Shown here in pieces: positions 4,183-7,066 of a DNA stretch of 38,088 nucleotides (positions are counted from its first letter, which is position 1; the number at the start of each line of letters is the position of its first letter). The translations under genes were made by a program, and so were the position numbers. The stretch covers positions 1 to 38,088 of the forward strand of contig JAMXLJ010000025.1 of assembly GCA_024281095.1 (NCBI GenBank). Direction: 5' to 3'. The stretch is from Acidimicrobiia bacterium. GTDB lineage: Bacteria > Actinomycetota > Acidimicrobiia > IMCC26256 > JAMXLJ01. The notes beneath the pieces were generated by a model that made no database searches, was not told the origin of the DNA, and was given only the letters and a program-made list of their open reading frames with translations.

Positions 4183-4497
4183 TCACGCGATCTGCGGCAC
4201 GGGCAACTCGGTTGGCTCGGGACGGACCTTCGGCGGCCGGCCCCGTTTCCGCTTCTGCGCGAGGACCTTCCCGTTGGCGAGCAGCTCCCCGCCCCAGACG
4301 CCCCAGGGCTCACGCCGAGCCAGCGCCGCGTCGAGGCATTCCTCGCGCACGGGGCAGGCCCGGCAGAACTGCTTCGCCGCGGCGATGTCGTCGAGCTGCT
4401 CGGAGAAGAACAGCTCCACCAACGACGCGGCACCGTCGCGGCACAAGGCATCGGCCCGCCACGGTTCCTCGGTTGTGATCAAGTCCAGGGCGAACAT
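4183..4497 (-). CDS. whiB7: WhiB7/WblC-type transcriptional regulator
   Basis: A 104-residue WhiB-family iron-sulfur protein. The four cluster-binding cysteines are at 19, 45, 48 and 54 in the C...CxxC...C pattern, followed by the turn EPWGVWGGE (63-71), which in this family contacts the primary sigma factor. After it comes KRKRGRPPK, an AT-hook (RGRP core at 85-88). The AT-hook is what separates WhiB7/WblC from other WhiB proteins; in mycobacteria and Streptomyces WhiB7 activates ribosome-protection, efflux and drug-modification genes in response to translation inhibitors. The tail (residues 91-104) is longer than in the mycobacterial protein. The ATG at 4497 has a clear AGGAG 8 bases upstream. 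The 5' leader holds an upstream ORF, antiterminator and terminator, the architecture known for whiB7. Assignment to WhiB7 is by motif and leader, not by tree. Confidence 0.85.
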   Translation of the reverse strand: MFALDLITTEEPWRADALCRDGAASLVELFFSEQLDDIAAAKQFCRACPVREECLDAALARREPWGVWGGELLANGKVLAQKRKRGRPPKVRPEPTELPVPQIA

Positions 4498-4583
4498 CGC
4501 CTCTGCTCCTGTCGGTCGGTTCGGTGCTCGGTGTTCCTGTGCCTTGGAGTTCCTTGCTTCGGGTCAGGGCGGCGATTTCGGGC

Positions 4584-4618
4584 AAACAAAAAGGCCGCCG
4601 GGTTGTCCCGACGGCCTC
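4584..4618 (-). terminator. Intrinsic terminator (attenuator) in the whiB7 leader
   Basis: On the minus strand GGCCGTCGGG - ACAA - CCCGGCGGCC forms a 10-bp stem (one G-U pair) with a 4-base loop, directly followed by TTTTTGTTT. This is the strongest Rho-independent terminator in the window. It lies between the upstream ORF stop (4642) and the WhiB start (4497), so it must be read through for WhiB to be made. Confidence 0.9.
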
Positions 4619-4672
4619 GGTGGGTTGCTGTAGCGGGAGCGCTACGGCGAGTCGACCCGGGACCGTCGGGAC
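4605..4672 (-). promoter_or_regulatory. Antiterminator pairing in the whiB7 leader
   Basis: In the transcript, GTCCCGACGG (4672 to 4663) is a perfect 10-base complement of CCGTCGGGAC (4614 to 4605). The latter covers most of the 5' arm of the terminator stem and the first loop bases, so the two pairings exclude each other. The upstream partner lies inside the upstream ORF, at codons 48-51 (Pro-Ser-Arg-Arg), so ribosome position could decide which structure forms. A second small hairpin, GTAGCG-CTCC-CGCTAC, spans the upstream ORF stop codon. Confidence 0.75.
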
Positions 4673-4815
4673 GGGTGGTGCTTCGGGTCGGTCGTGACGC
4701 CGAGAATCGGCAGCGCCGACCACGAAGCCGAGGGCATACGGCACGCGGCGAACGGCCGGACGCGCGCGCCACCCGCGGCGGCCATGTTCTGGCGCTGTGC
4801 CGCAGGTGCCGTCAT
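4642..4815 (-). CDS. Upstream leader ORF (57 residues) of whiB7
   Basis: ATG at 4815, preceded by GGAGGG with about 10 bases spacing, opens a 57-codon frame that ends with TAG 24 bases before the terminator stem. It is rich in Ala, Arg, Ser and Pro (start MTAPAAQRQNM, end SRVDSP) and resembles no enzyme or regulator. Its value is positional: it has a better ribosome binding site than many real genes here and contains the antiterminator strand. In known whiB7 leaders, drug-slowed translation of such an ORF lets the antiterminator form. The same role is inferred here. A longer in-frame reading upstream to 5184 exists but overlaps the divergent gene and lacks a start signal. Confidence 0.7.
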   Translation of the reverse strand: MTAPAAQRQNMAAAGGARVRPFAACRMPSASWSALPILGVTTDPKHHPSRRSRVDSP

Positions 4816-4923
4816 TGCGGTGATCCCTCCGTCTCGTTCCGTCTGGGGCGCGCCGTCTCGGACGCGGACTGTTGCTCGGCCCAAAAAGGCCGTGGACAGA
4901 GGCAACCAGAGCCCACCCATGGG

Positions 4924-4938
4924 TGTCAACCGAATATT
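4924..4938 (-). promoter_or_regulatory. whiB7 promoter: AT-rich box plus TTGACA
   Basis: On the minus strand AATATT (4938-4933) lies exactly 3 bases before a perfect -35 hexamer TTGACA (4929-4924). For mycobacterial whiB7, autoactivation depends on an AT-rich sequence 3 bases upstream of the -35, bound by the AT-hook; the match is exact in spacing. No canonical -10 follows at 17-18 bases (GTTGCC or TTGCCT), as expected of an activator-dependent promoter. The leader from here to the WhiB start would be about 400 bases. Confidence 0.7.
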
Positions 4939-5071: not shown

Positions 5072-7066
5072 ATGCCAGACGAAGGGGGGAGAGGCACGGA
5101 GTTTTCGCGCGCTCCGGGCGTCCACCGGCTCGGGTACCGGCCGGCCCTCGACGGCATCCGCGCCCTGGCGGTGCTCGCGGTCATCGCCTACCACTACGAC
5201 TACAGCTGGGCGAAGGGCGGCTTCCTCGGCGTCGACGCCTTCTTCGTCCTGTCGGGCTTCCTGATCACCACACTCCTCGTGCTGGAGTTCCGCGAGCACG
5301 AGACCATCCGCCTCGTCGCCTTCTGGGGCCGCCGGGCGCGGCGCCTCCTTCCGGCGCTGTTCCTCGTCCTGCTCTTCGTCGCGCTCTACACCCGACACGA
5401 TGTCGCGCCCTGGCAGCGGCCGGTGTTTCGCAACGACGGGCTCGCGAGCCTCTTCTACGTCGCCAACTGGCGGTTCATCTTCACGAAGCAGTCGTACTTC
5501 GAGCTGTTCACCGGCGCTTCACCACTGCGGCACATGTGGTCCCTCGCGATCGAGGAGCAGTTCTATCTGATCTGGCCGCTCGTGGTGCTGCTCTGCGTGC
5601 AACTCGGCCGCGGTTCACTTCGGTTGCTCACGACGGTGTGCGTGACCGGAGCCTTGGCCTCGATTGCGGTGATGGCCGCCACGTACAACGCCGGCGATCC
5701 CACACGCGCCTACTTCGGCACTGATGCGCGAGCCCACAGCCTTCTCGTCGGCGCGCTCCTGTCGATCGTCCTCCTGGTGCGCGCGCCGCGCCCGCGATCC
5801 CGGCGGGTCGTTCAGCCACTCGGGATCATTGCCGCGGCGGCGATCGTCGTGTCATGGACGCTCGTATCCGGTTCGTCGCGGGGCTACTACCACGGCGGCT
5901 CGGCCGTCTACGCGCTCGCGGTCGCGGCAGTGATCGCGGCAACGCTGCAAGGCGGTGTGTTGGGCCGCGCCCTTGCCGCGCAACCGCTCGTGTGGATCGG
6001 TCGCATCTCGTACGGGCTGTATCTGTGGCACTGGCCGATCAATGTCTGGCTCACACCGACACGGGCGGGAGCGCACGGCGATGCGCTGAACCTGTCCCGG
6101 CTCGGCGCGACATTCGCAGCGGCAACCGTCTCGTACTACGTCGTCGAGCGACCCGTCCGGATGCGGCGCTTCAGCTTCCCGGGCCGGCCCGCCGTCGCCG
6201 CCGCAGCTGCCGCGGGTGTCGCGTTCGCCATGGCCACGGCAGCCGCAGGAGCGGGCGCCGTGCAGGCGCCCCGATATATGTGGGTCTTCGGTCAGCCGAC
6301 CGCCTGCGGCGGGCCGTCCCGAGCGGAGCACAACGAAGCAGTCGCGGCGGCGCAACACATCGGCACTCCCGCCAAACCGTTGGCACGTCGTGTCCTGCTC
6401 GTCGGCGACTCACTCGCGTGCAGCCTGTTCCCGGGCATGTCGGTGATGGGACAACTCGCGGGCACAACCGTCGACCAAGGCGTCGTGACGGGTTGTGGGG
6501 TCGTGAGCGAAGCGACTGTCGACACCAACGGCGAGAGGAGCATGGCGACCACCGAGGTGTGCCACGACCTCGTCCAACATACCGAAGACCGTGCGCTGGC
6601 CCGCTCGCGCCCGGACGTCGTCGTCTGGTTCAGCGAGTGGGAGCGATTCAACATGAAGGTGGGTGGAAGCGTCGTGACGGCGGGAACACCCAACGCCGAC
6701 ACGTTGCTGCGGTCACGCATGGATGCGGCGTTCGCACGTCTCACGGCCGGGGGGGCCCATCTCGTGATCCTGACGGTGCCGTCGTTCACCGAGGGCACCG
6801 CGCTCGGGATCCAGACGACCCCCAACCCGACCCGCGACGCCGCCATCCTCCACTTGAACCGCCTGCTCCGGCGCTTCGCCGTGGCCCATCCCGGCCAGAT
6901 CTCCGTCGTCGACCTCGCCCGTCACGTCTGTCCGACCTTGTCGCCATGCACACCCGACGTCGACGGGCGCCGACCGCGCCCGGACGGGGCGCACTTCTCC
7001 CCCGCCGGTTCGGCGTGGGCGAGCAAGTGGGTCTTCGAACAGCTGGCCGCGTGCCTGAAGCGCTGA
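5072..7066 (+). CDS. Membrane O-acyltransferase with C-terminal SGNH domain (OatA-like)
   Basis: A 664-residue protein. Residues about 15-370 are an acyltransferase-3 domain: YRPALDGIRALAVL, then a His in YHYDYSWAKGGFLGVDAFFVLSG, the RRARRLLPAL basic loop, LRHMWSLAIEEQFYLIWP, and several hydrophobic helices up to GRISYGLYLWHWP. Residues about 440-664 form an extracytoplasmic SGNH/GDSL domain with VGDSLA (Ser near 444) and DGAHFSPAG (Asp/His pair). Such two-domain proteins move acyl groups across the membrane onto peptidoglycan or surface polysaccharide. ATG 5072 is chosen because GGAG lies 8 bases upstream (GTG 5069 is adjacent). An in-frame extension back to 4694 would run over the whiB7 leader. 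The gene diverges from whiB7. Confidence 0.87.
   Translation: MPDEGGRGTEFSRAPGVHRLGYRPALDGIRALAVLAVIAYHYDYSWAKGGFLGVDAFFVLSGFLITTLLVLEFREHETIRLVAFWGRRARRLLPALFLVLLFVALYTRHDVAPWQRPVFRNDGLASLFYVANWRFIFTKQSYFELFTGASPLRHMWSLAIEEQFYLIWPLVVLLCVQLGRGSLRLLTTVCVTGALASIAVMAATYNAGDPTRAYFGTDARAHSLLVGALLSIVLLVRAPRPRSRRVVQPLGIIAAAAIVVSWTLVSGSSRGYYHGGSAVYALAVAAVIAATLQGGVLGRALAAQPLVWIGRISYGLYLWHWPINVWLTPTRAGAHGDALNLSRLGATFAAATVSYYVVERPVRMRRFSFPGRPAVAAAAAAGVAFAMATAAAGAGAVQAPRYMWVFGQPTACGGPSRAEHNEAVAAAQHIGTPAKPLARRVLLVGDSLACSLFPGMSVMGQLAGTTVDQGVVTGCGVVSEATVDTNGERSMATTEVCHDLVQHTEDRALARSRPDVVVWFSEWERFNMKVGGSVVTAGTPNADTLLRSRMDAAFARLTAGGAHLVILTVPSFTEGTALGIQTTPNPTRDAAILHLNRLLRRFAVAHPGQISVVDLARHVCPTLSPCTPDVDGRRPRPDGAHFSPAGSAWASKWVFEQLAACLKR

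Follow-up and report, generated by a model that had tools for sequence, protein, structure and literature searches.

Probable ribosome-mediated transcription attenuation with WhiB7 autoactivation at the whiB7 leader of an acidimicrobial actinobacterium

Lee, Lee and Roe reportedly described, in 2022, uORF-mediated riboregulation of wblC in Streptomyces coelicolor (doi 10.1111/mmi.14834). The wblC leader is reported to hold a uORF, an intrinsic terminator and an antiterminator in which uORF sequence pairs with the terminator arm, with WhiB7/WblC encoded downstream. Attenuator leaders are typical of actinobacterial whiB7 genes (PMC10727445), and ribosome-mediated attenuation is a published mechanism for whiB7 and wblC (PMC11550727, PMC10727445, PMC13236596). 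Mycobacterial whiB7 is reported to have an attenuator together with an AT-rich motif (PMC3905903; Burian and Thompson 2018, as cited by PMC10727445). The WhiB7 motif is an AT-rich stretch 3 bp upstream of the -35 element (PMC10727445); it is bound by the AT-hook of WhiB7 and mediates autoactivation (PMC3905903). The EPW motif and the RGRP AT-hook are defined as WhiB7-specific (PMC10727445). In ribo-regulators found by Term-seq, such as Listeria rli53-lmo0919 (PMC11550727), a drug-stalled ribosome on the leader likewise favours an antiterminator; the genes and RNAs are unrelated to those described below, and a resistance gene is controlled directly there, whereas the gene controlled here encodes a global regulator.

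We analysed one whole contig (C25; 38,088 nucleotides, hereafter the window) of an acidimicrobial genome of 4.39 Mb in 177 contigs. On its minus strand lie, in this order, an AT-rich box, TTGACA, a uORF, a hairpin around the uORF stop codon, a terminator, whiB7 and a tRNA-Val gene (Table 1). The layout is that of the S. coelicolor wblC leader; the differences are the uORF peptide, the class (here Acidimicrobiia) and the terminator, which is of the GGCCGYCGG type here and mostly of the GGCCGCGGA type in Streptomyces and its relatives. The attenuator, the AT-rich motif 3 bp upstream of the -35 element and the EPW motif are shared with mycobacterial whiB7, a likeness across lineages that was drawn from layout. 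An Rfam search at the gathering threshold returned the tRNA-Val alone in the window and no match to a whiB7 leader family, so the leader was not assigned to any Rfam family. The kind of attenuator is already known; what appears to be new is its occurrence in Acidimicrobiia with a lineage-specific peptide, terminator and pairing register. None of the papers searched names whiB7 together with Acidimicrobiia, and an earlier mention in Lee et al. 2022 is possible.

Table 1. Positions of the parts of the whiB7 leader unit in the window.
Feature	Position	Strand	Remarks
AT-rich box AATATT, 3 nt ahead of the -35	4938-4933	(-)	predicted WhiB7 AT-hook site
-35 element TTGACA	4929-4924	(-)	spacing fits published WhiB7 motif (PMC10727445)
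uORF, 57 codons + TAG, SD GGAGGG	4815-4642	(-)	length and stop position conserved
Antiterminator 5' strand, in uORF codons 48-52	4672-4661	(-)	pairs and covaries with 4616-4605
Hairpin around uORF stop codon (GTAGCG-CTCC-CGCTAC)	4645-4630	(-)	enclosed by antiterminator
Intrinsic terminator hairpin, 12-bp stem, 4-nt loop	4618-4591	(-)	followed by TTTGTTT
Terminator U-rich tail	4592-4584	(-)	
whiB7 (104 aa)	4497-4183	(-)	Fe-S cysteines, EPWGVWGGE, KRGRPPK AT-hook

The protein carries a WhiB-type Fe-S domain (Pfam PF02467, Whib, 8e-18), with four cysteines in the translation (ALCRD, FCRACPVREECL). Its top PDB match was M. tuberculosis WhiB7 (6.5e-18), and the best entry other than WhiB7 scored about 1e-8; an NCBIfam search with the protein returned no match. 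The EPW motif stands ahead of the G-V-W-G-G turn, and the C-terminal AT-hook (KRKRGRPPK) aligns to RGRPRK of the mycobacterial protein. Ten matches to WhiB proteins were found in the genome, of which seven were resolved by script and three left out; among the seven, no other protein carries either EPW or RGRP.

Two partly overlapping collections of relatives were used for comparison. The first comprised 80 loci from genome contigs, about 40 of them (L011-L050) mostly from Acidimicrobiia; the second, the order set, came from 44 of 58 genomes that belong to the window's order. Loci L015 and L049 come from records titled Bifidobacterium breve that hold whiB7 loci of the acidimicrobial type; these titles look mislabelled (MAGs).

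The promoter box in the window reads AATATT-CGG-TTGACA, with a SigA-like -35, and is followed by a candidate -10 element, TTGCCT, at about 4905-4900 (-). Since this -10 is degenerate, a simple sigma-70 scan of the window found no promoter; the conserved box was recognised through comparison among relatives. Upstream of the uORF, a box of W4, N2-4 and TTGAC occurs in 25 of 30 order leaders, where shuffles predict 0.33, and in 60 of 67 leaders of the wider set, where 0.5 are expected. The promoter box at 4938-4924, at the outer end of the noted interval, is part of the whiB7 leader unit too. A divergent gene for an acyltransferase (SucT-like; 5072-7066, +) shares its intergenic region with the whiB7 promoter.

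An earlier note on this DNA had described a uORF with its ribosome binding site, a strong terminator and a perfect 10-base pairing between them, all of which were recovered at the claimed positions. The GGAGGG sits 9 nt ahead of the uORF ATG. A uORF of 50-62 codons that has a Shine-Dalgarno sequence and ends 24-34 nt ahead of the terminator was present in 27 of the 30 order leaders, against 0.32 expected from dinucleotide shuffles. The peptide is weakly conserved, with pairwise dN/dS mostly between 0.3 and 1.5 and often between 0.5 and 1.5; what recurs is an Arg-x-Arg, a Trp at about codon 31 and, towards the C-terminus, K-P-x-P-R-R. Because the peptide is under weak selection by this measure, we infer translation of the uORF from the conservation of frame, Shine-Dalgarno sequence and stop position. 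The hairpin around the stop codon has 62.5% of its alignment cells paired and changes on both sides, and is absent in many relatives. The terminator is the only terminator-like site between 4000 and 5200. Its arms are nearly invariant in the relatives, where the hairpins mostly fall between -20 and -28 kcal/mol.

The terminator 5' arm, at 4616-4605, is common to the antiterminator. The 10 bases of 4672-4663 (GTCCCGACGG) match those of 4614-4605 (CCGTCGGGAC) as a perfect reverse complement, and the pairing reaches 12 through one G-U and one more pair. The best duplex in the window (-32.3 kcal/mol) was equalled by 0 of 200 shuffles, whose mean was -19.4; in the wider set, the best duplex fails to beat shuffles at p<0.05 in 25 of 69 leaders. 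Folding of the nascent RNA from 4690 to 4604 gave 12 of 12 antiterminator pairs, and folding with the terminator 3' arm added gave 12 of 12 terminator pairs. When the two structures were scored with the stop-codon hairpin, the energies were -30.5 and -31.2 kcal/mol, and the predicted best fold of the full untranslated leader contains the antiterminator. The two structures are predicted to be mutually exclusive and nearly equal in energy. This balance is the one expected for an attenuator, in which the order of transcription and the position of the ribosome would decide the outcome.

Compensatory changes, which the earlier note had proposed to look for among related leaders, were found at two column pairs in an alignment of 33 leaders of the same order, 31 of them distinct. 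Standard pairs filled 88.4% of the antiterminator cells, 17 cells were double-sided, and the covariation score exceeded those of all 500 shuffles and of every slid register. Most of the covariation comes from column pair 42/102 (window 4666 x 4611), where the 31 distinct leaders have GC 16 times, AU 12 times, GU twice and another combination once; column pair 37/107 (CG 23, GC 3, UA 2, UG 1; UA in the window) is in support. About one leader in three lacks the pairs at columns 44/100 and 45/99. The left base of 42/102 sits at the wobble position of an Arg codon (CGG or CGA, a synonymous difference); it is A in leaders whose terminator arm carries U, and G in those whose arm carries C. The right base lies in the terminator 5' arm, where its terminator partner is always G. 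Because the wobble change is synonymous and the terminator partner constant, the antiterminator alone accounts for the match.

On the WhiB7 protein tree, a minimum of 7 changes is needed for the codon base, 8 for the arm and 9 for the joint state. Codon base and arm match in 30 of 32 leaders, a value reached in 4 of 20,000 phylogeny-aware simulations in which the 8 arm changes were placed at random on the whole best tree; the resulting p of about 2e-4 is approximate, as inner branches of this tree are often weakly supported. A test of independent pairs on well-supported branches did not reach significance with the few pairs available, which is why the whole-tree simulation was used. Together, these results are strong evolutionary evidence that the antiterminator pairing is real.

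We put the probability that the whiB7 leader of this actinobacterium is a ribosome-mediated transcription attenuator combined with WhiB7 autoactivation at roughly 0.9. The attenuation logic claimed in the earlier note for this lineage is supported by the parts, which are present and conserved, by the covariation and by the folds; we infer the drug response. RNA polymerase would start at the AT-rich/TTGACA promoter, probably activated by WhiB7, and transcribe the uORF. With translation at normal speed, ribosomes would stand over codons of about 48-57 as the terminator 5' arm emerges; with these codons covered, the hairpin would form and transcription would end. Under ribosome-targeting drugs, a shortage of aminoacyl-tRNA or failed initiation, codons 48-52 would be free and would capture the terminator 5' arm in a pairing that encloses the stop-codon hairpin and keeps the terminator from forming. 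Read-through into whiB7 would follow, and WhiB7 would then boost its own transcription. The switch thus probably turns on WhiB7 when drugs slow the ribosomes. A simple footprint estimate for a ribosome at the uORF stop leaves most of the 10 pairing bases free, so timing, more than simple masking, may decide between terminator and antiterminator.

The codons that form the antiterminator admit a second reading, in which the leader is an amino-acid sensor that responds to slow decoding of Pro-Arg-Arg with a rare CGA, or of Ala or Trp, and to drugs secondarily. Codons 49-51 encode Ser-Arg-Arg in the window and Pro-Arg-Arg in most relatives, CGA makes up 9% of the Arg codons in nine window genes, the Trp and the K-P-x-P-R-R recur, and mycobacterial whiB7 also responds to amino-acid starvation (PMC11550727, PMC10727445). 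However, CGA gives way to CGG whenever the arm has C, so that the codon tracks the RNA pairing and no need of sensing; the uORF has no run of a single amino acid, and the regulated gene encodes WhiB7 and no biosynthetic enzyme. We consider this reading unlikely. Similarly doubtful is an elaboration of the attenuator reading, in which the lineage-specific nascent peptide or codon context (the Trp at about codon 31, K-P-x-P-R-R over the antiterminator) would selectively arrest the ribosome, and Acidimicrobiia would tune whiB7 to stresses other than those of mycobacteria and Streptomyces with the RNA switch unchanged.

Transcripts that begin between the terminator and 4497 would bypass the attenuator, as the earlier note had pointed out. 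A search for a promoter-like site in this linker (4584-4498, -) found none, and it contains no TTG; the conserved box lies upstream of the uORF. The linker is T-poor and A/C-rich, with 4 T in 87 nt, and in 30 relatives (loci in L092-L133) the mean linker content is 7% T and 30% A, compared with 15% of each in the uORF regions. This skew persists in the relatives though the linker sequence is not conserved. Such a U-poor stretch could serve as a Rho site or free the Shine-Dalgarno sequence, so that translational or Rho-based control would dominate and the intrinsic terminator would be minor; against this stand the near-invariant arms and stable hairpins of the terminator in the relatives, and we regard it as highly improbable. 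Still harder to credit is an ordinary, constitutive terminator with uORF and complement arising by chance in GC-rich DNA: long ORFs are frequent at such GC content and GGCCG-type self-complementarity eases pairing (shuffled best duplexes average about -19 kcal/mol), but uORFs occur in 27/30 leaders against 0.3 expected, no shuffle attains the window duplex, the covariation exceeds the shuffles, the slid registers and the phylogenetic null, and the terminator has no co-directional gene to end because the nearest upstream gene is divergent (start at 5072, +).

All 39 Acidimicrobiia-type loci with upstream sequence carry a terminator of the GGCCGYCGG type or one closely similar to it. Loci of Acidimicrobiia outside the window's order (L017-L050) retain the terminator, and the conserved end of their uORF differs (QRPRGA, RPSGAPPG). 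In their leaders the terminator arm is often engaged at its foot (CGGCC-CGG with CCGAGGCCG), whereas in the window's order it is engaged at the top of the 5' arm. The pairing register shifts between groups of Acidimicrobiia, with the switch logic constant. Many whiB7 loci of Actinomycetes share this layout but differ in terminator (GGCCGCGGA...) and uORF; the terminator pattern fitted to Acidimicrobiia misses these terminators, and a general scan detects many of them. The uORF stop in these loci lies about 20-30 nt ahead of the hairpin, a spacing like that found here.

A scan of the genome gave 5 matches to W5N3TTGAC and 12 to W4N3TTGAC; whiB7 is among them, as are an SOS-like promoter and two efflux transporters of the DHA2 family. 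In two genomes of the genus, three of the few W4N3TTGAC sites (L143, G000:C41:8785; L148, G000:C107:7982; L156, G001:C8:74070) lie directly upstream of MFS efflux transporters, two of them of the DHA2 family by NCBIfam. These transporters are possible WhiB7 targets on the strength of their boxes. Palindromes resembling TetR sites are also present at L148 and L156. In three genomes, a WhiB7-like box upstream of a LysM-like protein adjoins a LexA-like palindrome (CGAACnnnnGTTCG; L135, G000:C28:27302; L164, G001:C70:54650; L162, G013:C270:6747). Because some boxes adjoin such TetR-like or LexA-like palindromes, we do not claim a WhiB7 regulon.

Natural covariation at a synonymous wobble base is cleaner evidence for an antiterminator than folding alone, because neither the peptide nor the terminator requires the wobble change. 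The finding brings a well-studied way of controlling the intrinsic response to antibiotics into a branch of the phylum distant from mycobacteria and Streptomyces, a class whose members are mostly uncultured. This suggests an early origin of the switch in the phylum, or its repeated retention.
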